The position numbers and the translations under genes are program-made. A DNA stretch of 64,000 bases from Gracilariopsis chorda. Lineage: Eukaryota > Rhodophyta > Florideophyceae > Gracilariales > Gracilariaceae. Where the stretch lies: positions 274,363 to 338,362 of the forward strand of contig NBIV01000056.1 of assembly GCA_003194525.1 (NCBI GenBank), read 5' to 3'. Below the pieces are notes generated by a model. It ran no database searches. It had not been told where the DNA came from and was given only the letters and a program-made list of their open reading frames with translations. This document shows, piece by piece, positions 1,845 to 61,327 of this stretch; the stretch's first letter is position 1, and every line of letters begins with the position of its first letter.

Positions 1845-2620
1845 TTGAAGTCGACCTGAAGATCATACATCCGCAGAAATATAAGAAGAAATCAAAGAAA
1901 ACACACTCCGTGAAGAGAACTGCTGATTACTATGTGGTAAAGAGAAAATGACAAAAGTAGAGGTGCCAGCAGCGTTTGACCATAAGTGAGTACATTCGTC
2001 CAGTATTTCATCAACCATATCTGCAATATATGCAAGAAGATAAAATGTTGGATCATGGTGGACGCACTTTGGGTTGGGGTGACGACGACGACCAGAACGA
2101 CGAATCACGAGATTGCTTCGTTGCATTCGCACGACGTGTGGTATGCGCCATGTTCGATGATTTCGAGTTTGAATTTCATCATGTTCACCTTGTTTCATAT
2201 TTGTTTCGCAGGTTGAGTTCTTCTGTTGCTCGCATGTTTATTTGTTGGCGTTTTCATCTTTTCGCGGCTTTCAGCTACAAGGACACTCTTTTTTTGGCCT
2301 GTTGTATCGCTATGTCTGGCCCCCCTTCTTCCACGTCTTCGTTGGTGTTCTCGTTATGCTAATTTGGCATTCAAAAGGTAAAGAATTAAAATGAACGAAT
2401 AACGACTCTTCAAACCCAATTTTGAATGAATCAAATTTCTCAAAATAATTCCATACATAGCACAGAGCTAGTTTGCTTAGGCCAAAAGACTAGCAGTATA
2501 CTAGACATTTCCCAGTTTCTTTGGAGGTAAAACTAGCGCCAGACTCCACTAATACCTACCCTCTCAGGTGCACGTGGAATCTAAATCTTACTGGTCCTGA
2601 GCGAGTGCCCCTTCAAATAG
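1845..2620. other. No supported gene
   Basis: Overlapping frames exist on both strands (up to 128 codons on plus around 1976-2362) but neither shows convincing composition or a recognisable domain. Confidence 0.5.
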
Positions 2621-2659
2621 CAAAATAGAATAGATAGAATAGAAAGAATAGATAAATAG
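2621..2659. repeat. Microsatellite-like A/T-rich repeat (AGAATAGAT type)
   Basis: Imperfect repeats of GAATA and GATAA blocks run along this stretch, just beyond the 3' end of the broken minus-strand coiled-coil gene. Confidence 0.75.
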
Positions 2660-2740
2660 CGTTTACATAACCAAATAGCTTTGGCTTTCTATCACCCGTT
2701 GCTTGACCTGCTCCCTGCATCACATGCTCTACCCCGCGCC

Positions 2741-5700
2741 CTACGAAAAGACGCTCTGCATCACGTGCACCACCTCATCTACGTTCGCCATAATATTACG
2801 CTCCCCGATATCCCACTCCGCCACCACCCTCCCTTCTCTGTTTCCAAACATCCCGTTCTCCGTTCTCCTTCCCCCGCCATGATACCCTGTTGCCATCCCC
2901 GTTGCACCTTCTATGGCTGCACCGTGTTCTCTCTCCAGAGTGACCAATGCAGGTGCCCTCATTGACTCACCCCCGACAAGCGCCCTTCCTCCTCCGCCAA
3001 CGCTCCCGTCCAGTTCCCTCCAAGGACCAAGCAACGAAAATCCGTTCCAAACCTCTCCACCATTCCTCCTCCCACTCCCCCACACTGCCCCTCCGACAGC
3101 GTCCCCCTCCCCGAAGATGAACCGTATCACATCCAACAGGCCTCCCTTTCCCTCCAAACACAAGACGCACACCACATGGCAAGTCACGCCCTCTGTTCAG
3201 TCTCCTCCTCAAACCCACCTCCCTATACCTCGTCCCAATACCCCTCCCCTTTCCTCAACAACCCCCATCTCGAGCAACTCGTTCTCTGCATCTCCTCCAT
3301 CACTTCCTCCTTCAGCACACGCAAAGCCGATGAACTCATCTCCCTTCTCAACCACCCGGACTTCTCCAAGTCAGCCTTCCAGAAATCCATCTCCTTCGCA
3401 AAGCAGTGCCTCCCACTCCGATACCACCTCGTCAAGGGACGTATCAACTCCACCAGTTTTCTCCCTCTCACAATCTCCGACGAGCACATATCCTTCTCCG
3501 CAACTCTCTTCCAAAAAGGCGCCATAGACGTCCTGAAGCAACAAATCGCTCTCGCACACTTGAACATCATCTTTTTACAACGCTTGTCCCAATCTTCACC
3601 TTACTCTTCTTCAAACCCCGCCTTCTCCCATCCTATGTCCGCAGCATTCGGAAACAAAATGGTTTCTGTCTTGAAGCAGGCCATCACGCAGTGCCACATC
3701 AATGATATCGTCTGGCACACCCCCAAAACAAACGGTATGGAATCATTCGTCTGTCTCGTCCAGGTATACTCCGATACGTCTGTAACCTCACTCAAAGGCT
3801 CCTCCATCACCTCGTACCCCCTTCACATCACCCTTCTCAAAATTCTCCGACGCATTCCACCGAAAGTGTGTCTCCCCAAACCTCACCCTCCTCGGATAAC
3901 TCCCAACTTTCTTCTCCCCCTCTTCCTCCCCCGGCGATGGATACTCCATCCCGCATTCGTCCTCCAACATCCCACGCAAAACAAGAATGGCCCTCATTCA
4001 GCGCGCTATCTCCACAATCTTCCGTTTCGAAGGTATCCACAGCGCTACCTTCGCTTCTCTACTCCCATTCCTAGCTATAAAACGCGGTTCACCTTCATCG
4101 CAACCTTCATTCTCCAATTCTTTATGATGTAGTTCTCTCACCCTCTCCCACGCCACCCCAAGTATTTTCTCCACCGCAAGCCGAAGATACTCCCCGTACA
4201 ACTAGGAAATAACAACTGCCTTCTTCTTCCACGCCCCATATCTGTGTCCATTGCTGTCAAAACAAATCTGATCCACGCATCCAAACGAGCCAAAGGCATC
4301 ACTGTCCCATCAACGTACTCCATCTTTCCCTCCATTTCCGTATCCACCTCATATCCCATGAATTCTTCCAACACTTCCACCGCAGCCCCGTTCTTGAAGT
4401 ACATGTCTTCTTCACTAAACTTCTTCAGCCGACCAGTAACCTGAAATCCAGAATACGTAAGACCCTTGATTGTTGTCATCCTCCAAGAACATAAACTACC
4501 GCTCTTCGCTTCCCCATTCCCCTTGAACTGCGTCTATGCTTCCTCTAACTGCTTCCTCAACTCAATGTCTAGCCCCATCCCCTCTTGCGGTCTCACACGT
4601 CTGGCAATCAATTCATATCCAAGCAACGAAAGCATTTTGTCCGGTGCCGCACGCTTCCGAATCCCAATCACATCACTCAAATTCTGCTTCATACGGTGTC
4701 TCAAACACCTGTCTGCAACAACCTCCGGCACGCATTGATCCTTCCTACCCACTTTACGAATCGACTGCCATCTCTCCACTTCAATCTCAACGCCAACCGA
4801 GTACTTCAATTGGTCATTACTTCCTCCTCGCGACGAAGGCATGTACGACTTCATCTCAGACGCGATCTCAAACGGACGGCGAGGCACAATTTCCTTTCCT
4901 CCGACAACAAACACACTCCACTCTCTTCCCTTCCTCAATAATTTGCATCGATTCTTCCAGTTTCTTTCCACACCCATCGAAGTAAAACAAAACTCCGATA
5001 CCTCTACCTCCGCATAGTACAACAACCTATCATATAATACCCTGGCAAACCCATGAAAACTCTCTTGCACATCAACAACATACTTCCTACGCCCTCTCAA
5101 TCCATTTTCACCTTCAGATCCCTTTCTCTCCCCTCTTCCCACCTTCATCCATTCCCGTAAGCTATCTATTAATATACTCTTCTCGCTAACCTCTTCTCTC
5201 ATCCTCTTCAGTTCCTCTTGCGTCAGCTTCAGCGACATCTTTAGGCGGCAGTGGTCCCCTTTGATCTGTCCGAGTTCTGCCTTCAATATATTGACCCTCT
5301 CAACTAACGATGATCGAGAAATCACAACGATGTCGTCATTTACTGCATCTACCAAAACATTGACAGGCAGGCTTCGCTCGTCAGCACGTTCACTTGGCGA
5401 CCGATGAACATTTCATTTTCTCTCTCGCATGCCTTCCAGAGTTTGCGGCGTTCTGCTTCCTTTATCACTTTCCAAGTTTTCAGCCATTTGCACCTTTCGC
5501 GTCCGCACGAGTGTGCTTGTACGGTCTCCGCTTTTCGATGCTTCCTGTATTCCATCCGTCGCTCTGACCACCTCTTCCCCTTCTCGCGTTTCTTTTAATT
5601 AGGGCAGCGTCCCACTTCTTCGTTTATCATATATCTCGTCCATCTCTCCTTCACAATGTGATCCTCTTCGTCTCCATCACTTTCTTCCAAAGAGAAATTT

Positions 5701-6344
5701 AACTCTCCTACATCTCGGTTTCCACTTGGGGCCCCGCCTCTCTTCAGCGCACCTAACTCTTCTATTTGTTTCCTTCCGGGCATATCTTCATCCTTATTTC
5801 GGTCTTCGACCGGCACATTTCCTTTCAATCCTCCCTGATCTATTACCTCTTCTGTTCTCCGAACAACGAACCCTTTTCTACCCTCCACTCTACCACCCGA
5901 CCCGGGCATAGATCGCTGTCCCCGAAACCAATCTCTCCCGCCCGCTATATGCGCATGGGCATCAGCCTTCAAGTTCTCACTCGTCGTGCGCTCACTCGTC
6001 GTGCGCTCGAATCCGACGTTCTTTGCCCCACCTCTTCTCCCTCTCTTCCAAGCACCTTCTCCTGACCTCTTCCCCGATAATCCAACGCTGGGAAAACATG
6101 ATTTTGCTTTCGTTCCACTTGCGGTTCGCCCCTCAATAGCCTTTCGCCGCGTCTTAGGCGCACTCGCCGCACCACCCCTTGCCGGGCCTCGCTTCTTTCC
6201 CTTCCGTGCCATTCTTGGAGTCAAACCTCTTGCAAAAGTGGCTAGTGACGCTCTGGGATGGCGCAAGCCGTGTGTTTTCAGGGAAAATCTCGCCACCCGA
6301 CGCGCACAAAAATCTTTGCTTTTTGTGAAATATTGAAAATACAA
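2741..6344 (-). pseudogene. Long broken gene for a basic, coiled-coil protein of unknown function
   Basis: Minus-strand coding character can be followed from about 6344 (first good ATG at 6211, MARKGKKRGPARGG) to a stop at 2741. It is carried through different frames by in-frame stops at 5595 (TAA), 4534 (TAG), 3998 (TGA) and 3601 (TAA) and by frame changes near 5350, 4200, 3800 and 3220. The N-terminus is Lys/Arg/Gly-rich and probably disordered. A basic segment follows at 5600-5400 (KKREKGKRWSERRMEYRKHRK) that could bind nucleic acid. A coiled coil lies at 5320-5160 (VERVNILKAELGQIK ... LKMSLKLTQEELKRMREE). The remainder is a globular-looking region with no recognised family. The intact product would have been well over 1,000 residues. 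The plus-strand Ser/Pro-rich frames here (2913-4132) are its shadows. It lies in the same orientation just downstream of the methyltransferase-SET pseudogene, so it may belong to the same element; that is inference. Confidence 0.6.
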
Positions 6345-6509
6345 TCCTTGGTGGTACCCAAAATGGACGTTTCTGTGTCACATCGATATCGCTTTGTATC
6401 TTCTATCCCTACTGAAAAGTAATATTGTCCTAAGTTAGGACTAGATATACGTTCACATAATAAACGAAATCCTTTAGCCAAGCTGTGGAGAACGGTTTAT
6501 AACAACAAA
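6345..6509. other. Short spacer between two decayed minus-strand genes
   Basis: AT-richer spacer between the coiled-coil pseudogene and the end of the methyltransferase-SET pseudogene. No feature seen. Confidence 0.5.
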
Positions 6510-6520
6510 CTAATCAATGA

Positions 6521-7206
6521 CGGTCGTTCCATCCTCCACATTCAAATGGGCTTGCCAGTCATAAACATTAACTTATCTGGCGAAGAGTTCCTCTCCTTGC
6601 TCTATGTTGGCTGCTGCCTCCATCTTAATAAGTTTGTAGTCCGTTATTCCCCCTGGTGTTCGTCCCACTCCCGGTGTCCATTTCACTCGCAAATTAGCTT
6701 CCCTTTTTTCACGAGGCCATCCACCATGGCATCTAACTGTTTATCCCGTTTGACGTACTTTGGATGGTTGATATACCCCGCAATCCAAAAAGGGGGAACG
6801 AACCACCCATAAAATGGGGTTTGCTTGTTTTCCATGCCAATTCGTCAGCTGTTTTCGATGCGGGAATGATTGGAACTGTTGACCGTAGACTTCTATCTCC
6901 ACCACATACTTCCGGAAGCGATCCTTCGTCACACCCATGACTCCCTCCCGTAGGTCTTGTGCATTTCTTTCCAATTCGAAAGGTCATGATAAACCAACAT
7001 CCCGTAGAAATAGAACACTACCTCCCCTGCAGCAATTCGACGAGTTGCAAACACTCCAACACCAGCCTTTTCGTGACGAATAGTAGACTTGCCCACTCGC
7101 AACCCATATTGGACAGCCTCCATTGCCAATAGAGACTTCATGTTCTCCAGATTCATTCTTCCTTGCAGCTCACTCGGCCATCCATCCATAGCTTTATTCC
7201 TTCCCA
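6521..7206 (-). repeat. Tandem duplication, copy 1 (SET-domain segment)
   Basis: About 690 bp almost matching the next block. Shared landmarks are the CATCCTCCACATTCAAATGG start and the SET motif GVGVFATRRIAAGEVV read on minus. Copy 1 carries the true gene end (stop at 6510-6512). Confidence 0.85.
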
Positions 7207-7900
7207 ACTATCGTCCCATCCTCCACATTCAAATGGGTTTGCCAGTCATAAACATCACCGTATCTGGCGAAGAGTTCCTCTCCTTGATCTAGGTCGGCTT
7301 TCCCCTCCATCTTAATACGTTTGTAGTCCGGTATTCCCCCTGGTGTTCGTCCTAATCCCGGTGTCCGTTTCATTCGCACATTAGCCTCCCTTTTTTTTCA
7401 CGAGGCCATCTATCATGGCATCTAACTGTATATCCCCTTTCACGTACTTTGGATTGTTGATATAACCCGCAATACAAAATGGGGCAAGAACCACCCCTTA
7501 AAATGGGGTTTGCTTGTTTTCCATGCCACATTGTCAGCTGTTTTCGATAAGGAAGTGATTGTAACTGTTGACCGTAGACTTCTATCTCCACCGCATACTT
7601 CTGGAAGCGATCCTTTGTCACACCCATGACTCCCTCCCCGTACGTGTTGTGCACTTCTTTCTGATTCGAAAGGTCATGATAAACCAACGTCCCGTAGAAA
7701 TAGCACACTACCTCGCCTGCTGCAATTCGACGAGTTGCAAACACTCCAACACCAGCCTTTTGGTGACGAGTAGTAGACTTGCCCACTCCCATCTCATATT
7801 GAACAGCCTCCTTTGCCAATAGAGACTTCATGTTATCCAGATTCATTCTTCCCTGCAGCTCCCTCGGCCATCCATCCATAGCTTTCTTCCTTCCCAACTT
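7207..7900 (-). repeat. Tandem duplication, copy 2 (SET-domain segment)
   Basis: Direct copy of 6521-7206 with scattered substitutions and small indels. This copy is continuous with the methyltransferase on its right. The junction (near 7206) is not in frame with copy 1, so the duplication would have truncated rather than extended the protein. Confidence 0.85.
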
Positions 7901-10400
7901 TTCTAGAATTTTACTTTGCCAAAAAGTGGAGAGAGAGTCGACAAGGTGTGAGGGAAGAATTTGGTGCGGTGGGAATCCGTCGACAGCCCTCCATAACACG
8001 GTGTGCCTGCTTCTTCCCATTGGGAATGCAGAGGAAACACAATGGGTAATCTTTCGAAGCTCCTGGCTCTTCTCAATATCCGTGTGTCCTTCGCGTATTA
8101 TGGAAGCGAAGCGAACAATAGTGGCATGCCTGGCGTGTTCAAAGCAAGCTTTCTTCATTTCACACCCCACAAACGTCCGATGCTTGGGCAGTTCCATGCA
8201 CGCCATCGCTGTCGAGAACGTTCCGGCAAACATGTCGACCACGAGGTCTCCTGGCTGACCGAAACTGCAAATCAGCTCTCTCAACAGTGTCCTACACTTC
8301 TGTTCCGGTCCCACCCTCTTCCTCGTATACTTCCCATCCGTGTTTTTTCACAGACCACATGAGCTTCTCACTATTTGACATCGGCGGCGCCTGATCCATG
8401 ATTGCATGATACGCAGGGTATCGTGAAGCAACATAGTTGAAGTTCTCATAGTTGACCATCCGGTGCTGTTGTGCATAAGGAGCTCCAGAACGAACAGCAT
8501 GTACAGCGTATTCTGTTGTCTGGTGCAACCGGCAACTTCTTCTCCCAACGTTACCCGTCGTATTACCTAAAGACCATACGAAATGGAGGTGCTGTTCGTC
8601 GACGACAAAGGAGTAACGCATCGTATCACAGTCATCCATGTAGGTAACTTTCCATAGCACATCCTGCCACAACGGTACCTGATCCCATGAGCAGAACTGT
8701 ATATATTTCCACCAGGACGTATAAGCTTTGACGACCTCCTTGCTGACCTGCTCATGCACTTCTCTGTCCGAATATCGTGTTCGCTGTTCTCCAAACGACG
8801 CTCAGAACGAGTCCCATATGGCGGATCGGAAAGCAGAAACTGTACCCTTCCTTCAATAGATACCTCGCTTTCGCCAGACTTGTTGTCGTCAACCTCGATG
8901 AGATTTTCGAACTTGCAGTTGTGGAGACGGAAGTTTCGGGACATTTCCTTCTCAAAATACTTGTAAGCTATCACATCGTCCAAAGTGGTAGGGTACGGTG
9001 GTGCATGAATCCCCGTGCCTTCGACCTCATACGATAAGTTCTGCGACAAAGCTGTTGTCTGCAGTCCTTCAGTGGCCTTTGGTGCAGTACCACGTTCCGC
9101 AGTACCACTTTACGCATCCTTTACCATCTCTATCTCTTCCAGTTCTTCCAACTCACCCTGATCACCACCTTCCACACGCTCAGCACGTTCGTTCCCACCA
9201 CCAGCCGTACCAGCTTCTACCGGCTCCATAATGATGTCAACGTCTTCTGTGCGCTCTGATTTCACAGCTTGATGTACTTTGACCTTGCTTCCATGCCATA
9301 CAATGAGCTTCAGAGGCTTTATGGCTTCTTGAACCGTAGTGACAAGAGATTCACTAAAGTTCTCAAACCACAGAGGGAAAAGTCTCGTTCTCGTGATGAT
9401 GAACCTTTTGAGGGCATCCCATTTGCTGGGAGCAGAGATGTCAAACAGTTTCTCTTGTACCACCAAATTAGAAAGGTCACCAAGGTATTCTTTGGCACAA
9501 ATGCGAAGGGCTGTATCCACTGGGTCCGGCAGATTCCGTGCCCATTTGTTAACGTTTTCTTCTACGGTGGTGACGTTCTTCTCCTCCACAAACTGTTTGG
9601 AACAATCTTTGTGTTGGAAGCCCATGGAGCGTTGTGCGATATTGGTGAAGACTACACTGATATTGTCGAGTCGAATGTAAGGCAAGATCATAACCTCAAC
9701 GTTGGGAAACCCGAGGAATTGGGCGAAACAATCCTAAGACCTGGTCACCAGCTGCACACCATACCCGACTCTCTGACTCTGGGTCTTGTCCGACAAACTC
9801 ACCTTCGAGAACTTCTTAGCTGCCATGCCCCTTTTCCTCTTCATACCACTTCCTCTCCTATCCACGGCAATCTGTTGCACCATAGACAACCCAATGAACA
9901 TTGCAAAGTCGGTGCAAGGATCCGTGTGGAAAGCCGAAGATTTCTTGGTTGCTCCCAGAACATGGGACTTGCAAGAGACAGATAGCAACACGTTACGGTG
10001 AATTCTTTTAAGCCCTTCCCTTTTACAATAAACCTTCCAAAAGTCCCTTACACGCCTGTCTTCTTCACAGTCCTTTACGTCCACCACTCTTGCCATAAGA
10101 TAGAGTTGACGTGGAGGGCCTCTGAATGCCATGTTACGGAGCTCGGAGTCCGAAGACGAGATGTAATCCGGTCCGATGAGAGTGAGAAACACTTTCTTGG
10201 CAGAGTCATGAACGTTGCGACTTTGTACCGCGAACTCCACAAGGTCGGTGTGCTTCAAACTTTTAGGCTCATCCACATTTTGCCTCGTCGCTGCGTAGTC
10301 ATCACGAACTGCAAGATAAGCATCAATAAGCTATTCTCCGGTTCCGTGCGTCTTGAATGAACCCGTTTCTTTCGGATTATGTTTCTCTTCGTTTTGGGTC

Positions 10401-10664
10401 GAGGACCGTGGTCCGTGGTGTCATGGTGCTCCATCGCGATTACAATGGAGCACCAGGCATGATGTTTAATTTGAATTTCGCGTCCTGGCACTCCATCGTA
10501 ATCGCGATGGAGCGCCCGGCATGAATTTTAATTAAATTTTCGCGTCCTGGCGCTCCATCGTAATCGCGATGGAGCGCCAGGCATGAATTTTAATTGAAAT
10601 GTTGGGTCCTGGTGCTCCATCGTAATCGCGATGGAGCACAACCACACCCTGGACCACGGACCTC
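10401..10664. repeat. Array of four 62-bp-spaced palindromes inside an outer inverted repeat
   Basis: Four dyads have centres at 10439.5, 10501.5, 10563.5 and 10625.5, exactly 62 bp apart. The best one (10546-10581) has 15-bp perfect arms, CCTGGCGCTCCATCG and its complement, around a TAATCG core. The first dyad is in the opposite orientation to the other three. Between the dyads are A/T-rich linkers of the form GCATGAATTTTAATT. The whole array is bounded by an imperfect inverted repeat with GGACCACGG-type arms (10401-10421 and 10644-10664). It lies between the divergent methyltransferase-SET gene and the ParB-like frame. Seen: the repeats and spacing. Inferred: an operator or partition-type binding array. 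A foldback transposon is the main alternative. Confidence 0.9.
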
Positions 10665-10768
10665 TACCAAAAAATTAACAAACTCTTTTGCAATGCAAGT
10701 AATTGGGAGGGGAATTGCAGGGATGCTACGTTGACGACAATGGATGTCATGAAAACGATATATAGTGC

Positions 10769-11246
10769 TTACTTCCATCTCTTCGGAACCAAGCATACGT
10801 GATCACGGGAGTATTTGACGTCAGCGGGTGCCAAGAAAACGCAAGCGCGACCTTTGAAGTACTTAGCCATAGATTCCACTGGGAATAAGGTAAACACGCC
10901 ATCACGGAAATGGACTCCGAGGAAGCCTGTTTCGGCAAAGAGACGTGTTATAGACATGTCGACCACGCGAGGCAAAGCGAAGAGCCGGGGCGCCACCCAA
11001 ACTGCCAGCCACCCTGAGCCATCAATTGGGGGCAATACCGGTCAGGTGCTTAAGGGCAATGCGGAGGTCAATCTGTTCGTACGAGTTGGGAGTAGTGATG
11101 CAAAGGTGAAGGTGGGGGAGGCGAAATTGCGCGGTGTGCGTTGCTGCGGGGCCGGGTACAAGACTCTGTCGTTCACTACGCAACCATCCCCTGTCCTCTA
11201 CGCAGAGATCTAGGGAGGACGTGGTGGTTATCTTTAAGACAAACAT
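10769..11246 (-). other. Ambiguous coding segment upstream of the ParB-like frame
   Basis: A minus-strand reading (about 11246-10769, two frames) contains protein-like stretches such as VVDMSITRLFAETGFLGVHFR and KYFKGRACVFLAPADVKYS. A plus-strand frame of 132 codons overlaps it at 10815-11213. The minus reading looks more protein-like, but nothing is recognised. It could be an upstream part of the minus-strand gene, a separate small gene, or noise. Confidence 0.3.
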
Positions 11247-11393
11247 TTCGTCACACCAAGATGAGAAGTACCCTTATGTTTTTGGAGGTCCCGAGGAACC
11301 GCCTGCAACTATGAAGGAGATGGTTTCAGCGGGTTTATATGCATGGGACACTGCGATGATGAGTGTCACAAATGAAGGCGGAGAGGGGAATGA

Positions 11394-13586
11394 GTCGGTT
11401 CCACCGCAGTCAGGAGCAAATGGGAAGACTGTCCACAGAATTACAGCTTCCAGGACCACTGTGAGACAAGTCAAGTGCCTTCCCGCTGTTGTGGTACACC
11501 ATCAAGCGTTTTGGTGACCAAAGCGCCGGTGAGGAGCCTTGAGAGCGGTGGAGAGGCTCCGGTGAAAACCCGTCAGAGTGGTGGAGGAACATCAGGTGCT
11601 CTCGTGGGCGGCTCTGGAAACCAAGGAGGCCCTGAAGTCGGAGCAAGCTCCAATGATGACGTCATAGAGGTGCCTGTACTCTACAGGAACAATCTTGATC
11701 CGGAGGAGAGGGTTTTATATGATGACAGTGATGCTGTTCCTTCGGAAGAGGTGGATAACAGTTTGGGTGTCTTAGACATCAATCGAGATGATTATGACCA
11801 GCAAAATTGCGTAATCGATATCCACAACATTCAATTTCTGAAGAACATGGTGCGTTCGAAGAATGACAAACATCTTCAAGATACTTCGAACAAACTGAGG
11901 AAATTCGGAAGGCTCCCTTCTCTTGGGTTGATTGCGGTGGCTCTGTTGGAGGGTGTGCCGGTTCGTGACGCTATTGATGCGAGTGGGCGTTTGATTGTTC
12001 CTGTGGTTTTAGTGGATGGCTTCCATCGAGTGAGTGTTCTACTGGACCTCGAGCAGGATGGTGCGAAATGGGCACGGATTACTGCTGGTTTGAACGTCAC
12101 GCTTTGGGAACGGAACCACGGCCGGAGAATGACATTAAATGAGGTGTTGTGGCTGGGGAAGACGTTGAATGATTTGAGCTCCAATGTTCTGGTGATGTCC
12201 TTCGCAGATAAGATTCACACTGCTGTTTCGTTTATTCGTAATGGCGTAGAGCAGGATGGGTATGATCTGTCAAAGCTTAAACCAAGCCAAATCACGGGGT
12301 TGTTGTGGAGCAGTGAGACGAACGGGAAAGAAGGGAAGATACGTCATTTCAATCGCCATTCTGCTCTTACTCTGAAGTTTGCGTGTAGTCCCGGTCTGTT
12401 AGAGTTATTCGATGTGGTGTGGCAGGAAATGCCTCAAATTGGAATAACTCATGTGTCTAGTGATATTCTGCTTGGAATGTCAGGGGATACGTTTTGTTTT
12501 ACTATCCAATGTCTACAGGCGCATGTTCGAATGAGGTCGGCGGCCACTGTGAAGATGGGACCGTTTGAGGGTTTCCGAAAGTACTTCTTCGACTGTGCTT
12601 CTAGAACGTATGACACTTGCAGTGAGCTGGGGAGTTCCATGAAGAAGAAAAAGAATGTACAGGAAGTGATGAATACCACAGTTGCCATCGGCAATTCTGA
12701 CCAGACTATGTCAAATTATATCACATCTCGTCTGGGGAAGTGGTATACGAAAGGGAAACGCAGTTCACTGGAGTCCAGAGTGAGTAATAAGGTGAAAGAG
12801 GCTCGTAGGACGTTTTCCAGCGCTTTGCCGGGCATGCAGAGACAGGATGCTACTGCTGCTGCTCCCTCTGTGGCCGATGTGGACGTGATCGAGTTGCTTG
12901 GTCTGAATGAGGAAGCTGCTCAGGAGCCTCTGAAAGCTGACCAGGATCCTCGAAGAAGTAAGAGAATCTCAAAGAAGCGTAAAGTGGAGGTCCTGGACGA
13001 AGATGAAGATGAAGAGTCAGTTGATTTTGAGCCACCGGTGAAGAGGCAGAGACCATCGAATCGTAAGCCGATTGCACCTGATGTGAAGCGGCTTGGCTTT
13101 GGTATCTCTCAGGAGGTGATGGGGGTGCTGCGTAGTATGGAAAGGGGAGATTTGAAAAGGTGGTTGACAGCAAAGGAGATCATTGTGCTCGAGTCCAGCG
13201 AGGATGAAGCTCAAGAGAACTTCGTGGATGATGAGGAAGACGAGGCAGAGGAGCACCAAACCGCAGGCAGCTTTGACGATAAGAATCCTGACAAGCTTCC
13301 AGCTGGCTTAAGTACGCCAGGAGAACTGGCTATGGGAGTGGACATGTCTTGCGTGGACCTGGTATACTCTTTGCTTAGTGAGTGGCGTGCAACCGGAAAT
13401 GCAGTGAAGCATTCCCATCCATGGATGCAGAGGATAAATCTGAGAAAGCACCATCGGAAGGACTGCCTATCACCTGATGACTTCCAAATGGTTCATCATA
13501 CTGTGTACTGGCGTGCGTCACGCAACATGCACAAAGAGATAGGTACTACGACACGTGCAGTGCTGGGCGTGAAGATGGGGTCGTGA
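11394..13586 (+). CDS. ParB-like domain protein with nuclear localisation signals (5' end unresolved)
   Basis: Long uninterrupted frame, about 700 codons. Counting from codon 11475, the ParB/sulfiredoxin-type core lies around residues 110-200, with the signature IVPVVLVDGFHRVSVLLDL; DGFHR is at 181-185. Upstream of it a segment (NIQFLKNMVRSKN) fits the start of a ParB N-terminal fold. The C-terminal half has eukaryotic nuclear features: KRISKKRK at about 496-503 and KRQRPSNRK at about 521-529, with acidic runs at 507-514 and 575-593. ParB-fold proteins bind DNA sites and can hydrolyse CTP or act as nucleases; which applies here is unknown. No ATG occurs early in this frame, and a different frame is open upstream from ATG 11311, so a first exon or a frameshift must be postulated. 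The gene diverges from the methyltransferase-SET gene across the palindrome array, which suggests a linked function. Confidence 0.65.
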   Translation, partial: VGSTAVRSKWEDCPQNYSFQDHCETSQVPSRCCGTPSSVLVTKAPVRSLESGGEAPVKTRQSGGGTSGALVGGSGNQGGPEVGASSNDDVIEVPVLYRNNLDPEERVLYDDSDAVPSEEVDNSLGVLDINRDDYDQQNCVIDIHNIQFLKNMVRSKNDKHLQDTSNKLRKFGRLPSLGLIAVALLEGVPVRDAIDASGRLIVPVVLVDGFHRVSVLLDLEQDGAKWARITAGLNVTLWERNHGRRMTLNEVLWLGKTLNDLSSNVLVMSFADKIHTAVSFIRNGVEQDGYDLSKLKPSQITGLLWSSETNGKEGKIRHFNRHSALTLKFACSPGLLELFDVVWQEMPQIGITHVSSDILLGMSGDTFCFTIQCLQAHVRMRSAATVKMGPFEGFRKYFFDCASRTYDTCSELGSSMKKKKNVQEVMNTTVAIGNSDQTMSNYITSRLGKWYTKGKRSSLESRVSNKVKEARRTFSSALPGMQRQDATAAAPSVADVDVIELLGLNEEAAQEPLKADQDPRRSKRISKKRKVEVLDEDEDEESVDFEPPVKRQRPSNRKPIAPDVKRLGFGISQEVMGVLRSMERGDLKRWLTAKEIIVLESSEDEAQENFVDDEEDEAEEHQTAGSFDDKNPDKLPAGLSTPGELAMGVDMSCVDLVYSLLSEWRATGNAVKHSHPWMQRINLRKHHRKDCLSPDDFQMVHHTVYWRASRNMHKEIGTTTRAVLGVKMGS

Positions 13587-13879
13587 AAAGGAGGTTGGAG
13601 GAGACGGACGAAGAAAGATTGGAGGTTAAGAGTCGGTTGAAGAGGAGGCATGGAAAGAGGGAAGCGGGAGAAGAAGGGTAGTGATGTTTAGGAGTGTCGT
13701 TGAGGCTGTTAGTACGACGGAATGGGTGGTATTGGAATCTGATGCGCGGTGCGTCGGGTGTGTGAGAACGGAGAGAGCTGCCCAGATGAGTTCCTGAGGA
13801 TGAGTTGGAAGTCAGACTAGGGCAGTATTAAGTTTGAAATTCAAAAGATGGAAATAAAAATGTTATTTTTGGTTGGGTG
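13587..13879. other. 3' flank of the ParB-like gene
   Basis: G/A-rich sequence after the stop at 13584-13586, then increasingly AT-rich. No gene or clear processing signal identified. Confidence 0.4.
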
Positions 13880-13922
13880 CTCGAAATGGCACTGGCCGCT
13901 GCGCAGCCAGCGCCATTTCGAG
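13880..13922. repeat. Inverted repeat (16-bp arms)
   Basis: Arms at 13880-13895 (CTCGAAATGGCACTGG) and 13907-13922 match at 15 of 16 positions around an 11-nt spacer. It lies about 300 bp beyond the ParB-like gene. Different in sequence from the 62-bp array. Confidence 0.85.
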
Positions 13923-16900
13923 ATCTGTATCTAGCCTTTAGCGGAGAATGAACTTGCTCCAAACTTGAAACTAGCGATGCGCAATGCAGGTGAGGCAAGG
14001 CTCTGTAAGATATGGAAGTGTGAATTCCAAAAATATTTTTTTTACTTGGCAAGCGCCAGAAACTACCATAATCTATCATTTTCGTAGTATTTTTGAGCTT
14101 TTGCCTAAGAAACTTGCAATCTAGCACCTCTATCTAGCATTCCGAGAACACCGACGTTGTGATGACGCCCACAATTACGTTTCGGTTTCCCTGGGAACCC
14201 TACCAAAAAACCTATTTGGCTCTACTCATAGCTTACCATAGCAATCCCGTGCACACGCCAAGAAATTGTGGGGAACGGTTCAGTCACGGTGTCAATTTGG
14301 TAGTTTAATACTCTCTACGCATGTTCTGTGGAGAAAGACCTGTGCATTTTCTGCTTGCTACAGTATCATTTTATTTGTATACCTGCGTTGGAATGGGTTC
14401 AAATCTACATCATTCGACTAGTCCATAATAGTTTTACAAACGAGGATCTTTTGTGCCTTACCGACGTTTCCAAGCATATGTTTTAAGTTCAGCAACGTCT
14501 ATCACCCCACTAGATCTTTACTGTTTCCTACCTTGCGAGGAACTATACGTAAGAAAGCGCTCCAAACCATTGGCTTCATGACCTGGCACTCGATGCTCTT
14601 TACGGCCGAGTGAGCTATACATGCAACCCTTCAATCGGTCTCTCTGACCATTTTATGGCTTGTATGGGCATTCCGCAGCTTCAACAACTCGTATTACACT
14701 GATATTCTGCTGTGCATTATCCTACAAAAACATAACTTTGAAACTAATACCAGTGGAAATACACTATACTATTTCGATATGATATAGATAAAGATGTAGC
14801 AGAATGTATATACTTCCAATTTACCTCAGATGAAGTATTGATATATTGTTCATTCCGGAAGCATGTATGCGTGCCTATCGCGCAAGAACCCGATACATAT
14901 GTCTCATGTTTTTGATATCGTTTGAAACATTTTCAGATATAGGAAATTTTGAAATATATTGAACGAATATCAAAATCTCATGAAAACTGTACCAGTGCGT
15001 ACCAGCATTATACCACGTTTATATCTTGAGCGTATCAAACATATCATCGGCAATACTATTTACATTTCAATCAATGGTCACTTAGGTATCAGCCACGCAT
15101 CATAACTATGCATTCCCACCATATCTGTTCTATATCAAAACGATATCTTGACTTTCTACTTGGTATTGGTCAAAACGTCTTCAAATGAGCACAGTTATTG
15201 ATGTATGTTTGGGCCAGTTGAATTCGAAACATTGTGCATTTTCTGAGTGCGGTGAGCAGCGTACGCGTAATCTAGAAGTTCATCAACGTCTACCACATCA
15301 CCAGTGGCAGGCTGCTCTGTTTTCTGAACTGTCCTGTCAGCAAGCTTCAGTTCCAAACCACTTTTTCACGTGATGTTAAACGCTTCTTACGGCCATGGCC
15401 CTCTGCTCCACTCTTTAATCGCTTGAGATGCGCAGTGTACTATTCGTACGCATATTTGCCCAGATCTTACACGTCTGTTTCCGTGTTTCTGATACGCTTT
15501 ACTCTTCCTTGTGCCCAAAATTCTCGTTGAAGCCAGAACGTTGCCCAAATGTGGCGACAATGTGCGCTATCCTGGTATTTAGAACAACAATGATGTCCAA
15601 ATCTATAAAAATGTAGATTACTTACAGTAAGACGGAAAGACCCCAAGATGTTGCTTTTATAATGATATGAATCTTTAAAAAATCCAAATTACCCACATCT
15701 CAACCATAATCTAGGCATTCCCTGTTTCATATGACGCAAATAAGTTCTCTTGAATACCGTTTTTATCGGGTATGCTTCGGAGGCGCACTGTGTTCGGTAA
15801 CCATTTTCGTTGCACTATGGAGGCCATTCTCGTGGCTCATAGTGTTAATGCCTCACATTTTGTGTTGCTTGTATCATAAAGAATGAATCGAGACGATACG
15901 ATTCTGTGCTAATCAAGATTGACATGATTCTTGGCACCGGCAAACTTCATTCCAGCCCCCACATTTTCCATAACTGAAATCAACGTTTTCATACTACGTT
16001 CTGTACTACGTTTGTCAGTAGCAACACTGAACTCTGAGTGAACAAGTAAATATCAGCCTTCTTGTTGTATGTGAATGCTGCTCATGATAAGAGGCATCCT
16101 TTTCCCAGAACACAATGAGTCAAAAATTCTCTATAGTTTTACTTCAATTGTTTCAAAATGTTTGCAGGCACCTCTGCGGGTTTTTGGGACCCCATAATTC
16201 AATTATTATGCTCTAGAATACGTAATAGCTCGTATTTACACTACAAAAGACACCCCGTTAAGATTTAGGGGTTCCGAGAAAACTCCTGGTAATAATAGGA
16301 GTGCATTTGGACGGTGCACAGCTGTTCTGGATGAAGTTCGGAAGCTAACTGGAGGCCATCCCGAGTTCTCAGCATCTCTCCTTCGGCCCTCGATGCTCGG
16401 TTTCCAAATTGATGGTGCAAGGAGCGCAAGCGGTACGCGGAGAGAGTGCTGTCTACAAAGTTTGCATTTAATTTGCACCAGGACTGCAACATTTTGTAAT
16501 TTTCCACACTTTATTTGCAATCCGCACGACATCCGGAAAATAAGAAAAGTCCATTGATTGCGCGAGAGGTGGTCTATTTCGAGGATACAAGGCGTTCTGC
16601 GTGAACCCCAATGGCCTATCAGACCCTTCAATATTGCACTCTGACTGCACTCCTCAAATTCCAAGCATTTGCTTTAGGGGTGCTGTATGGAGCCACGAAA
16701 ACAGTCTTGACAGAGAGATATTGTGGATAAAAATCTAGAATTGAGTGTAGCAACGTGCAATTAGTTTAAAAACGACTGAGCTCCAGACGGGGATAAATAT
16801 TGGCTACCGATGTACGGGCATTTGATTTTGCTATGGTGACAATGGCAGTTGGAAGCGGGTAGTGATCAAGACCGTGGACAATATTGCTCTAAGATATCAG

Positions 16901-17404: not shown

Positions 17405-20400
17405 AGCATCAGAGCAAACCAACGCCACCGCTACCTTTCAGCGTTAAATAGGTATCTTATTGACCCACTTCAAGTGGCGGAGTTGCTAGGTCTTTTTGGG
17501 TGGTATTATCATCTTCTCCAATAATTTGGACGAACATCTCACCCATGTCAGGGAGGTTTTCTCAGTAGTCTGTGATGCGGGAATTGCTCTCAAGCTGAGG
17601 AAGTGCGACTGCCTCACTGAGAAGGTGAAGAATCTGGGACATACTATCCATCCGGGATGGTGGATGATCGAGAAAGCTCGAGTCAAATGCCTTGTTGAGG
17701 CCTCAACCAGGAGTTCTTCGTGGGGCTGGTCAAGGTTTACCTACGGTCTACCCAGAACATTTTGGGCATCGCACCAACTTTAAACGCGTTTCTACCTGAA
17801 GAACATGCCTCAAAATTGGGACAGTTGACCCTCAGGCAATCGGAAGCGTTTAAATTTATAAAGGAGGCTGTCACGTCAGCATCCATCTTATCCTTACCCA
17901 AAGTGGGACCTACGTACTCTAGGAACACGGAAGTGTGCCACAACCAAGTTGGTTGTGCTCTTATCCAAGTGCCTCCGACGAGGACCGAAAACCAGTTGGA
18001 TATTGGTAGGGCTCGCTCAATATCCACGAGCGAAATTACTATGTCTCGGAGAAAGAGTGAATCGCCGTCGTTTGGGCACTTTGCACTCTACGCGCCTATC
18101 TTATGGGAGTGCATTTCACCGTATAGACGGATGGCTCTTCGTTGAGGTGGCTAATGAGTATCACCGATCCGTCAGGCCGCCTTATGCGCTGGAGACACGC
18201 CTTGCTGAATAATGCTTCCAAGTCATATATTAAAATGATGCTCTCAAAACCCACACCAACGCTTTGTCGCGTTTACACAAAAAAGCAGAAGCGCGCTGAA
18301 AGAAGTATGACGACATTCCATTCATTATGGCAGAATAATCGCATGATCCGTAGTGGATGTTCGAAGAATGGCCAGAAAACTGGGATGAAGATGTTGAATT
18401 TGACAATTTACTCACATCCCGTGAGACCCTTGAGAGTCCCTGACCAGAACGTTTTGTACCTGTTTCACTGGAGGAATTGCTCCGAGAACAATTCGGAGAC
18501 CAATTCTGTAAGAGGATTCGTGCCCGTCTAAACGGCAGTGAGGACCTGCCATTCTAGATAGACAATAAGGGGTACATCGTTTGGTTGTTCGAAGCTCGCC
18601 CACAGATTGTGGTACCTCATTCCTGCAGTGGCGGGTGTTACATCTTTTGCACTATGCGAAGCTCGGTGGCCACGTAGGTGGAAGGATGCTCTGCCTAACC
18701 CTACGAAGGTCTTTTTACTGGCCCGCCATGGCAGTCGATTGCTACACAACTCTGCGGTTTCATACCGAATGCGCGAAGAACCGGATGAAGCTCTGCAGGA
18801 ACGCGAAAGGAAATGAAGTTATTCCCTGCTAGGGCGCCACTAGAGTTTATCTAAATCGATATTCTCGGACCTCTCCTCACTACAAAGAGAGGGAACAAGT
18901 TCTTACTTGTGATCACCGATCGCTATTCAAAGCTTGCTCGGACTGACCCTCTTCGAAGGAAAACCGCTTTCACTGTGGCCCAGGCTCTGTTAACGCACTG
19001 GATCTTTGTCTACGGTCCTCCTGTGGAGGTGCTCTCCGATAATGGAAGGCAGTTGGCGTCCAAGTTCTTCCAGGACGATTGTCGCATCCTGGAAATGAAG
19101 AGCTTGTTCACTAATACCTACCATCTCCAATGTAATGGGCAAGTCGAACGGATCAACGAAACTTTGTTGGCCTGTCTCCGTTCCTACGTTGCTGATCACC
19201 CTAAGACTTGGGACTTTTATACAGAAGCTTTAACATTTGCATACAATACGCAAGTTCACCGGACTACCGGAGTGTCACAGTTCGAATTGGTTCTATCTCG
19301 TTCACCCCAGCCTGTGGCCTTATAATCCCAAGCCACCTTGGACAATTTCCCATCTGTGGGTCGCTATCGCCAGGAATGGAAGCAATAGCTTACTAAAATG
19401 GTCCCTACAGCGCGGAAGTCTATGGAACGCGCACAAGCCGCGTAGAAGCGGGATTTCGACGCTTGTTTACGAGATAATGCTCCCCCCGTACGGGCCAATA
19501 CCTACGTCTTTATACGTAAGGAATATTATAACACGGAACGGGAGAAGCGTCACAAGCTTTCGCCTGTGGCGGATGGACCATTTAAAGTGGTATCCGTTAA
19601 GTCCGACACTGTCAAAGTGGAGATGGGCAAGGCACACGAGCAGATTTCCCGCAATCGTCTTGTACCTGCCCCTCCTCCTTCATTTGAGGTGGTCCTGGAA
19701 ACAGGGTATCCCGTCTGTACGGACTCAGCAATGCCGGAAATCTCCCGACTAAATAGACCGACTACTCAACCAAACCTTGCTCGCTGCATCTTGGGTTTAC
19801 TGACTCTGCCGGAAACCCCGGCTCGGCCGGATCGTTTAGGTCCAAACGGAATCTTTTCTACTCCTAACACTACCGCCCCTTCGGCGCGCATTTACACCCG
19901 CCATTCGTGATATCCTACTGCTACTCCCCTTGCTCCGTCTAAGGAAGTGGAGGAGAGCTATCGCTACGATGGGAATTTACTACCGTCGCAATGGGATTTG
20001 AGCTATGAGACATGGAATGTAGATGAAGCCTCGCAATCCCCCACACAAGGTTCCGGAACGACGCAGGTACACCGTATGATACGGGAGAGTGGAACGACAT
20101 TCAACTATGTACCCCTCAACCAGGGAAATTCCCTGAATCAGGATAGCGATATTGTTTCGCAGACCCCTCACCAGGGTGTACTCGCAGAAACGTTGTTGAC
20201 AGAATTTCCCGCCAAAACGGATTCCTCAGCACCATCCACTTCACTGGTAGCGGGTAACAAACGCGTTGGGAATCCAGCAACGCTGGAACGTGAAGAGAAC
20301 CTCTTGGGGGAGGAAGACAGGAATGCACCTCTTGCAACGTAAGTCCATGGCTCTACAGCCCCGGACTTGAGAACCGTTTATAACGGGAATGTTGTCCAAA

Positions 20401-25703: not shown

Positions 25704-27718
25704 ATGGCCAACGAAATGCCAACCACCATTGACTTTGACAGTAACACTATACTTTCATCACCGCAAGTCTCAGACACCGAATTATTTCTAACCGAGTGTA
25801 ATGAAGAACAATTAGTAACCATGCAAGAGCGTATCGATGATTGCTTCCAATTAATCCCTTAGTACCGGCCGATGTTGACAAGCTTGATAGCATTCCTTAT
25901 TGCAAAAAATGGTCTTCGCATTCAGAACTACATATTCTGAAGAAGGGTCTAGTTCAACAAGCGCTGGATAGCGAGCGACGAGAAACTAATCTTATGAACT
26001 TATTTCTAAAGTCTTCTTTCATTGAGTGTATTCGGGCATGGACAAGTAAGGTCCTCGCAAGGAGAGGCAAGAAGTGCCTTACTACGACCGAACTGAAAGC
26101 CTTTATTTGTTTGGAGATAGCCACATCATTGTCAAGGATGAACAGAATACAGGATTACTGGAGTACGAAGATATTTGTGGGTCAGGTTGATTTTCAACGG
26201 ATTACGTCTCGTAACCGTTACCAAGATATCCGAAGTGCCTTGCGCCTTTATTGTTCTTATGAGCACAGTTCAGATACGGACCCTCTGTGGCATTCTAGGA
26301 TCATGATTGAACATTTCTTGAAAAACGCAACTTCTACTGCAGTACCCGTTGGTGTCACAACCTTGGACGAGACCACAATACGTTGCAAGGGTAGGACAGC
26401 TGCTCGATCATATATTAAATCGAAACCTGTGCGCTTTGGCATCCGATTGTACGTTGTCGCGGCTTGGAAATATGCTTATATAAACACGCTGTTGGACAAC
26501 GGATCAGGAAACAAAACTGGAGTGGCGCCGGCGATTGCATACACTACATTGTTCCGCACCCGGAGGGGTGTGTTTCATGGTAACTTGGATGGAAAGTTGA
26601 TAAAAAAATCCAGTGCTTCTGCGCTATGGTGTATTATGTTGACACATCAATGTCAGGCTACAATAACAGGGGACCAACAAAGGCTTGTCGTGATGGATAG
26701 TTTTTATACGAGGCACACATTCGCCAAGCAATTGAAAAGTATGACCGACAAGAAACTGAAGGTACTAGGCACTGTGCGGCTGAACAAAATTGATAATATC
26801 AACCGAGCAGCTGTTGAGGAGGCTCTTGAGCACCTAAAGGAGAGACGAAGAGGATCCTGGGTTTTGTGTCAAGCTTATGACAGATCCAGTGAGCCATATG
26901 TCGAGCCCACTGTGGCGCAGTCGTCTGGATACATTGTATTCAAAGACAGGAAAGTCGTCATATTCTACATAAACGACCTTGCATGCACACCGAACTCTAG
27001 AATTGTGGAGCCCAACAATCATGCCATTGAATGTGTAAATGGAATAGGCCCACTTGAGCGATGGGTCGGAGACGAAGCCTTACATCGAACCAAATTTGCG
27101 GTTCCGGCGGTCATTGTGGCTTATAGCATGTTTATGAATGGCGTCGACCGTTTTGATCAGCTGCGGTCAACGAATGCTATCGTGCGAAAGGAGCAACGTG
27201 TTCCAATGAGTGTATGTACCTTCCTCATTGATGCTAATATACTAAATGGGTTTGCCATTCTACAGGCATCTTCAAACGGGAACTTTGGATGCACGGTGCA
27301 TGATTTCAAACGCAAGTTAGCTGAACAACTTGCTTCTACACTAATAGATTTTCGAACGGCGAAGATTGCTATTCATTCACTGCTTTCCTCATGGACAGGA
27401 GAAGTTGCGGAAAGATTGCCGGTCCATTTGCTACTTGAAACTACGGGCAAACAGCAGGGACAGTGTTACTTGTGTAGGATAATGCAGAACTCTAAGAGAG
27501 TGATTACATCCATTTACGCGTGTTCAGTTTGCTTGCTTGCGTTTTAAGTTAACTGCTTTGCGATATATCACAATCTCAGTGAAATTTGTCGTGACCGGGT
27601 CGAATTATTCGAATTAATTCAAACCGCAATGACGATAAGAGAGAATTGTCCGCGTCGGAAAAGAACCATCAATTCCGCAACGTCCCTACAGCATGCCAGG
27701 TTGCCATTTCAATCTTGA
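25704..27718 (+). pseudogene. piggyBac-like transposase, two disruptions
   Basis: The main frame (25841-27547, 568 codons) shows the DDE_Tnp_1_7 family. First Asp region: TTLDETTIRCKGRTAARSYI (D176). Second: RLVVMDSFYTRHTFAK (D286). Third: YSMFMNGVDRFDQLR (D436), followed by FLIDANILNGFAI. The frame has no initiating ATG: a TGA lies directly before it. An acidic N-terminus typical of the family (from ATG 25704, TIDFDSNTILSSPQVSDTEL) sits in another frame and joins near 25855, a one-base shift. At the 3' end a TAA at 27545 falls inside the C-terminal cysteine-rich domain. Beyond it the same frame continues VNCFAIYHNLSEICRD to a TGA at 27716, supplying the missing Cys and His ligands. Without the frameshift and the stop the product would be about 670 residues. 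The catalytic triad is intact, so decay is recent. Confidence 0.9.
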
Positions 27719-55467: not shown

Positions 55468-55572
55468 GGAGGAAGATCAGCTAGTGAACGCACAGGAAGC
55501 AACGGTAGCGATCGAGATAGAAACGTTTTGGCGTCTCATTCCGGCAACAAAGACGCGATACTACCCTTGATA

Positions 55573-55700
55573 GTGAGCATACGCACCCAGAATTCTGCAT
55601 AGTAGTGAGCATACGCACCCAGAATTCTGCATAGTAGTGAGCATACGCATTCAGAATTCTGCATAGTAGTGAGCATACGCATTCAGAATTCTGCGGAGTA
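55573..55700. repeat. Tandem repeat, four 32-bp units
   Basis: Four head-to-tail units begin GTGAGCATACGCA and contain CAGAATTCTG, itself a palindrome. Units 1-2 are identical; units 3-4 share a CC to TT change. Confidence 0.97.
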
Positions 55701-55762
55701 CGAAGCAGAATTCTGCCAAAATCATTACACTGAAACAAGGGTGAGAAGGGCCTTCGGCCCTA

Positions 55763-56110
55763 CCACTCTTGCCTGCAGTTGTGACGTCTGCATCTTGCCT
55801 GCAGGAAAGTGGTAGCGCCGCCCCACCACACTTTCTTGCAGTTGTGATGTCTGCATCTTGCTTGCAGGAAAGAGTGGTAGGGCCGGCCTACCATTCTTTC
55901 CTGCAGTTGTGACGTCTGCATCTTGCCTGCAGGAAAGAGTGATAGGGCCAGAGCTTGAGTCCTTTCACTTTCACTTGAACACTTTCCTGCAGTTGTGATG
56001 TCTGCATCTTGCCTGCAGGAAAGAGTGGTAGCGCCGCCCTATCATTATTTCCAGCAGTCGTGACGTCTGCGTCTTGCCTGCAGGAAAGAGTGATAGGGCC
56101 GGAGCTTGAG
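55763..56110. repeat. Tandem hairpin repeat, five units
   Basis: Five related units of roughly 60-95 bp each contain TTCCTGCAG and CTGCAGGAAA arms flanking TGTGACGTCTGCATCTTGC. The arms can pair as a stem. Units 3 and 5 share the extra tail GGGCCRGAGCTTGAG. Confidence 0.9.
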
Positions 56111-60983: not shown

Positions 60984-61327
60984 TTTTTCTGGGCCTGCAG
61001 TGTGACAATCAGACGTCGTAGCTCGGAGGGCGTGCTGTATATCTGCACTGCTTCTTGGAATGCAATATCACACTGGGATCCGTCCGCGAGCAGTCCGCTT
61101 ACAATCGCAGTTTCACGATACGTTCCATACTGCTGTCCGTTGAAAGTCCTTGCGTCTTCATAAGAGCTCGATCCGTAATTCATGAGCAGCAATCGCAGAG
61201 AAAAGAGCTCAATGTCCGACGGTGAAACACGTTTGATCCTTGCGACGCACTGCTCGTCTTCCAGGCACTGTACCACGTACATAGGCAGATCGCAGTGGTC
61301 TGTGGGCACCTGAGTGCTGTCTCCGTC
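60984..61327 (-). pseudogene. Helitron region between Rep and helicase
   Basis: The minus frame 61309-60809 overlaps the helicase frame. It contains CDLPMYVVQCLEDEQCVARI, FSLRLLLMNYGSSSYEDART and YGTYRETAIVSGLLADGSQC. These match the conserved stretch linking Rep and helicase in Helitron proteins (R-x2-YFLRLLLxxV-x-G..SFxxLRTV, and ACxxxGLL). Frames change at both ends. Confidence 0.75.

Follow-up and report, generated by a model that had tools for sequence, protein, structure and literature searches.

In the part of Kojima (2025; PMC12730594) drawn on here, target duplications of 2 bp are given for PlavakaA transposons and of 2 or 3 bp for PlavakaB, and fungal Plavaka elements are described which carry TET/JBP genes and thereby an extra DNA-modification function. 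Shortened copies of CACTA/En-Spm elements are reported, in the cited section of PMC2613891, to be mobile if their cis sites are kept, and the portion of a ParB-CTPase-fold survey used here (PMC12704722) places ParB-fold proteins on mobile elements and, in phages, often in fusion with N6/N4 methyltransferases. The locus described here, an array of four palindromes (dyads) in a 64,000-nucleotide stretch of DNA (the window), is almost certainly an internal part of a Plavaka-type transposon. As in the Plavaka elements of the CMCT group outlined in the cited part of PMC12730594, a transposase domain, terminal inverted repeats and 2-bp target duplications occur together. Unlike the elements described there, this one resides in a probably red-algal host, ends in CGTCGG..CCGACG and contains an internal palindrome array, and whereas the fungal elements of that account carry TET/JBP genes, the cargo here comprises a methyltransferase-SET gene and a gene with a ParB-like motif. 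As its termini are neither those of PlavakaA (TGT..ACA) nor those of PlavakaB (CATCA..TGATG), the element is filed as Plavaka-type only.

The host is a eukaryote, most likely a red alga, since its genome yields 15 matches to the light-harvesting family PF00504 (fragments included) and seven to the phycobilisome-linker family PF00427. No red-algal Plavaka element with a ParB-motif or SET gene was found by title and abstract opening in the openly licensed literature, among the matches listed, and there is weak evidence that a red-algal Plavaka-type element with such cargo is novel.

The transposon, its genes and its distribution

Two families of the element are distinguished, family A, to which the window copy belongs, and its sister, family B. 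The window copy spans positions 2340-14156, with CGTYGG terminal repeats and a TT target duplication, and its sharp ends were obtained by comparison with the C1 copy, homology to which begins at 2344. In young copies the terminal repeats have the sequence CGTCGGTGTTYTCGGAATGCTAG, from which old copies deviate, and 2-bp target duplications flank all four copies read on both sides (TT in the window, TA in C1, TC in C34 and AT in C15). The Plavaka transposase domain (PF18759) was detected in an ORF of the C15 copy (E = 7.5e-22; 78.4 bits against a cut-off of 26.3), to which the transposase remnant in the window aligns by tblastn at 66% over 333 aa (E = 3e-118) and 62% over 69 aa. A full element measures approximately 18 kb, one side accounting for about 8.0 kb (as in C204) and the other for 10.0 kb (as in C31). 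The features of the window copy are as follows:

2338-2339, unstranded: target-site duplication TT, left (by eye; matches 14157-14158)
2340-2361, plus strand: left terminal inverted repeat CGTTGGTGTTCTCGTTATGCTA (comparison with the C1 copy)
2879-4022, plus strand: relative of the Plavaka-type transposase, broken, two pieces in different frames (tblastn with the C15 ORF)
4016-6284, minus strand: relative of the 802-aa gene of the sister family, no Pfam hit (tblastn)
6513-9232, minus strand: DNA methyltransferase (N6_N4_Mtase) and SET-domain gene, broken and partly duplicated (Pfam, tblastn)
9557-10366, minus strand: first gene to the left of the array, 68% to the 320-aa ORF of the sister family (tblastn)
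10392-10673, unstranded: whole palindrome array with outer inverted arms (Tandem Repeats Finder and inverted-repeat match)
10429-10450, unstranded: dyad 1, with flipped core and one arm mismatch
10491-10512, unstranded: dyad 2
10553-10574, unstranded: dyad 3
10615-10636, unstranded: dyad 4
10884-13577, plus strand: ParB/Srx-motif gene, with a 703-aa ORF at 11475-13586 (tblastn)
13577-14156, unstranded: right terminal segment ending in the terminal inverted repeat CATTCCGAGAACACCGACG (comparison with the C1 copy)
14157-14158, unstranded: target-site duplication TT, right (by eye)

The N6_N4_Mtase domain scores above its Pfam cut-off in the window copy and the SET domain below it, whereas in family B the methyltransferase and SET domains are joined in one ORF and both exceed their cut-offs. 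Within the broken window gene lies a direct duplication (6524-7209 and 7211-7899, 90% identical). The 413-aa and 259-aa ORFs at the right of the element gave no Pfam hit. The gene to the right of the array had been called ParB-like, a label that rests on a ParB/Srx-like motif seen by eye and was not borne out by profiles, since no ParB hit was obtained for the proteins of the element in Pfam, PHROGs or NCBIfam, nor any hit in PDB. A single-sequence AlphaFold model of the protein was unusable (mean pLDDT 30.5). At the end of the 1417-aa protein of family B stands a motif (HTD..H..R) which we take to be dioxygenase-like, and which found no support in the profile libraries searched.

Several further traces of mobile DNA accompany these elements. 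Directly to the right of the window copy is a reverse-transcriptase fragment (RVT_1, 17496-17783; E = 8e-05, below the cut-off), and the window also encodes a piggyBac-like transposase at 25841-27547 (568-aa ORF; DDE_Tnp_1_7, PF13843; E = 2.2e-35) and, at 59223-62104, ORFs with a Pif1_2B_dom match (E = 1.7e-05) that we interpret as Helitron-helicase-like. An ORF adjoining the C15 copy (L076:2-940) resembles a tyrosine recombinase by eye.

The genome searched comprises 91.3 Mb in 1081 contigs. Allowing up to three mismatches, the dyad 22-mer was found 94 times on one strand and 106 times on the other, and its reversed control not at all. The 37 array loci retrieved represent 24 distinct places, in all of which the sequence of one long gene-bearing element adjoins the array. 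The ParB/Srx-motif gene to the right of the array has 73 matches genome-wide, and in 19 of 20 copies fetched by its protein, dyads lie upstream within the locus; in the remaining copy (C628) the array is situated just beyond the fetched piece. The preliminary description had advised a search for the dyad elsewhere in the genome, especially near ParB-like genes, and this search thus places it consistently within one element and beside this gene. It had also warned that solo copies flanked by target duplications and lacking linked genes would point to a foldback or MITE element; none was found among the 24 places, and both that class and a simple satellite are ruled out for the places read. A scan of viral contigs returned 56 stretches with the pattern and no true relative of the array.

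Organisation, variation and decay of the array

The dyads are centred on 10439.5, 10501.5, 10563.5 and 10625.5, with a constant step of 62 bp, exactly to the base as previously described. The pattern CTCCATCG-N6-CGATGGAG, with at most three mismatches, matches at these four sites and nowhere else in the window (0.27 matches expected by chance), and four matches occurred in none of 100 shuffled windows. The flipping of the first dyad is seen in its asymmetric 6-bp core, which reads CGATTA there and TAATCG in dyads 2-4, and the outer inverted repeat said to close the array was likewise recovered, with 66-nt arms (10392-10457 and 10608-10673) that are 86% complementary. Tandem Repeats Finder reports a single 62-bp array of 3.5 copies, and the array folds as a hairpin when single-stranded (z = -16.0). 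Its position between divergent genes also stands, as minus-strand homology to a sister-family gene extends up to 10366 and plus-strand homology starts at 10884, the two genes pointing away from each other. A second, unrelated palindromic array is found at 55571-56110 of the window, where the unit of 65 bp has inverted-repeat structure (GCCCTACCACTCTTTCCTGCAG...CTGCAGGAAAGAGTGGTAGGGC) and is accompanied by a 32-bp tandem unit.

A spacing of 62 bp was observed in 42 of the 46 neighbouring pairs with perfect half-sites, the remainder being spaced at 61 (two pairs), 64 and 58 bp, while the reversed pattern used as a control for this search gave one match per strand. Most of the arrays read contain two dyads, which are mirror images about an AT-rich linker close to CAGGCATGAATTTTAATTAAAATTTCGCGTCCTGG. 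In larger arrays the 62-bp unit is repeated, with three dyads in C212, four in the window and C150, and five in C332; exceptions are C125, with irregular steps, and C6, with a 50-bp step. In the gene-proximal array 62-bp steps are present in 17 of 19 loci, one of the other two having a 64-bp step and one a single dyad passing the cut. The period, which the preliminary description had suggested checking in other copies, is widely, but not universally, kept. Two or more linkers 476-496 bp apart are found at 16 sites, in opposite orientation at six and the same orientation at ten (hand count), and since opposed linkers occur at six of these sites the linker seems able to flip, which its position between inverted arms would lead one to expect. 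Such opposed linkers are seen in C3, C10, C35, C51, C90 and C112, in paired arrays about 490 bp apart.

From the 62-bp period it had been concluded that all sites face the same side of the DNA helix. As a general rule this proved unsupported, as in copies with a pair of arrays the distance from a dyad of one array to its neighbour in the other is 377-426 bp, and that between the two family-B palindromes 235 or 236 bp, and helical phasing need not be invoked because tandem duplication yields such a period by itself. The extra 62-bp units would have arisen by tandem duplication of one unit, through slippage or unequal exchange; an array which looks designed, with an exact period and apparently one helix face, can stem from plain tandem duplication.

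To judge by sequence, family A looks old, since in-frame stops interrupt 19 of the best 20 of the 73 ParB-motif matches and over a 1.2-kb piece of the gene its copies are about 5-8% divergent from the window copy. The window copy has no in-frame stops in the ParB-motif stretch, yet its gene lacks the last quarter of the 1417-aa sister-family protein, and because this gene is truncated and the transposase broken, the array of the window copy is probably no longer in use. In 19 family-A copies selected by protein and not by array, mean diversity was 0.125 and 0.062 in the dyad arms, 0.258 in the core, 0.154 in the linker and 0.148 in the outer arm, as compared to 0.055-0.109 in the flanks and 0.074 in the gene. 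These values run counter to the earlier view that cores and arms are conserved while linkers vary, the core being more diverse than the linker and the array no better conserved than its flanks. Two core types, TGTTCG and TAATCG, are found among the family-A dyads. Across 54 dyads from 19 of 20 loci, 34 one-sided changes and a single two-sided change were counted in 432 pair cells, and pairing equals that of shuffled dyads. We infer that the lineage preserved the symmetry for as long as it was active, and that in family A it has been eroding from then on. The one-sided changes cluster at the arm CpG (positions 7 and 8) and 22 of the 34 are transitions; this pattern may hint at cytosine methylation.

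The sister family and its shortened copies

The ParB-motif match of family B is 67-68% identical to that of the window and has an intact ORF of 1417 aa. Its copies are mutually about 98-99.8% identical over shared stretches, and the family looks young at the sequence level. The divergent promoter of family B contains two perfect palindromes with 38- and 43-bp arms (76 and 86 bp) at the same place as the family-A array, and the palindrome folds strongly when single-stranded (z = -16.3). The arms of the two families are related, GGTCCGTGGNCCG..GTGTCRTGG being followed by CTCCATCG in family A and by CTTCATCA in family B, and over a 40-nt arm approximately seven to eight differences are mirrored on both sides (by eye). 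A gapped alignment of the two intergenic regions gave 30/40 and 105/142 identical positions, near the level of shuffled letters (0.71-0.72). The 44-mer palindrome of family B occurs at 51 places, the best 50 of which are all perfect. At C210:119997-120057 both half-sites are perfect but stand 19 bp apart rather than the usual 2 bp.

At all ten palindrome loci read, family-B sequence lies alongside with one or both sides deleted, and the derivatives in C34 and C15, which were read from end to end, share only end pieces of about 2.3 and 2.1 kb and a 277-bp palindrome middle. Sampling that does not depend on the palindrome was achieved by locating family-B elements through their two ends, among the 40 matches listed for each end, and this end pairing recovered at least 24 complete elements of 5.6-11.9 kb. 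Among the matches listed, the perfect 44-mer is present in 21 of these 24, in 11 length layouts (20-bp bins), and a widened-centre palindrome in the 22nd (C210), so that 22 of the 24 complete elements listed retain a palindrome; the remaining two (C14:325957-332971 and C27:206634-217801) have none among the 50 of 51 places and 100 of 106 matches listed. Where a first end has no partner, a palindrome follows within 12 kb in 12 of 16 cases, among the matches listed, and none does so in C325, C228, C919 and C143, where the contig may end. The near-constant presence of the palindrome exceeds what random deletion would leave, as 7-kb copies hold about a quarter of the interior and yet nearly all keep it, although the deletions are nested, not independent, and commonly end at the palindromes. 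The deletion ends in family B are as follows:

2448, 2464 and about 2477: deletion ends at palindrome 1
2632 and 2697: deletion ends at palindrome 2
2750, 3055 and 3188: other deletion ends

A proposed role of the palindrome and comparison with known systems

The four dyads almost certainly constitute the palindrome array at the centre of a large DNA transposon of Plavaka type, between two divergent genes. In the proposed mechanism, a protein made by the element, either the ParB-motif protein or the transposase, would bind the palindrome, and the bound palindrome would control the two promoters and/or transposition, as do the TnpA sites of CACTA elements and the VANC motifs of VANDAL elements. 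The palindrome is considered a candidate cis site at which a protein encoded by the element would control transposition and/or the divergent promoters, with a probability of roughly 0.55. It suggests itself as a switch or docking site because shortened family-B copies nearly always keep it, and family B maintains related perfect palindromes in place despite protein identity of only about 68%. The poor conservation and one-sided decay of the family-A dyads argue against a binding site, as do the imperfectly fixed spacing of two-dyad arrays and the two of 24 complete family-B elements and four of 16 unpaired ends without a palindrome, among the matches listed.

The main rival, and a strong one, is that the hairpins simply stop deletions: repair copying after excision would stall at a hairpin, deletions would end there, and the palindrome would survive through its position. 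Five of the eight distinct family-B deletion ends fall within or no more than 3 bp from a palindrome, the linker that follows the first dyad contains a family-A junction common to C85, C51 and C336, single-strand folding is very strong for both structures, and the lack of extra conservation in the family-A array is as expected on this account. Deletion ends at palindromes, together with such strong hairpins, weaken the step from a palindrome that is kept to one that is needed. A mechanical origin would, however, leave unexplained why a related palindrome occupies the same place in a sister family with its differences mirrored in both arms, and why the palindrome persists in elements that end elsewhere on the right (2750, 3055 and 3188), and as a full account it is judged possible but on the unlikely side. 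A literature search on hairpins, gap repair and transposon deletions retrieved nothing pertinent. The array might instead be transcribed as part of the 5' leader of either gene and act there as an RNA hairpin, given that in family A it begins about 40 bp or less from the homology start of the left gene (10392 as against 10366), but with pairing-preserving changes absent across the 54 dyads and no Rfam match, such a device appears improbable.

The operator-, iteron- or parS-like cluster of the preliminary description survives in part, in that regulatory-looking palindromes, and not a satellite, adjoin a ParB/Srx-motif gene; its parS and iteron components do not. A site for partition or replication served by a ParB-like protein would accord with this neighbourhood, but the palindromes belong to an element of a eukaryotic nucleus that ends in terminal repeats and is flanked by target duplications, the profile and structure libraries recognised no ParB domain, and family scans of the ORFs of the element revealed no ParA-like gene. 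Iterons are direct repeats at a plasmid origin, whereas the dyads here are mirror-oriented at the two ends of the array within a nuclear transposon. Nothing points to plasmid replication or partition, the genome being eukaryotic and the genes those of a transposon, and a parS- or iteron-like role is considered very unlikely. Scarcely any weight is given to insertion of a foldback or MITE element into the promoter; inverted-repeat structure and many copies are what such an element would show, but the same long element, and no short stand-alone one with its own target duplication, surrounds the array at every distinct place read, and the ends and target duplications are kilobases away.

A more elaborate version of the cis-site reading, in which the palindrome, multiplied in 62-bp steps, is read by the ParB-motif protein and aims the methyltransferase-SET protein at the element, shortened copies without it being immobile, is doubtful. 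If true, it would imply self-regulation, or escape from silencing, by the element's own methyltransferase-SET protein, in a VANC-like system of independent origin built from bacterial-type DNA-modification parts. Should the palindrome prove to be required, it would account for the parts of an 18-kb transposon that cannot be missing from a shortened copy, and the unusual methyltransferase-SET and ParB-motif proteins would gain a target open to testing.

As in the systems surveyed in PMC12704722, a paper that nowhere uses the words for transposon and palindrome, a ParB-motif gene shares an element with an N6_N4_Mtase, although here the two are separate genes and the motif was seen by eye. The VANC motifs of VANDAL elements, as presented in the cited part of PMC5735166, are likewise non-coding transposon motifs gained and lost in tandem and of two types (here TGTTCG and TAATCG), but are short, share one orientation and have been shown to be bound, whereas those described here are long palindromes and putative sites, and VANDAL elements constitute a different transposon group from this Plavaka-type element. 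The TnpA sites of CACTA/En-Spm elements, in the cited section of PMC2613891, are also repeated sites and serve a related transposase group; they are subterminal, while the array here is central and a self-comparison of the window revealed no second copy of it near the element ends. With a motif array in the non-coding part of the element, varying from two to five dyads as in arrays of the VANC/TnpA kind, the locus resembles the TnpA (PMC2613891) and VANC (PMC5735166) targets by its anatomy and is a putative target of this kind.
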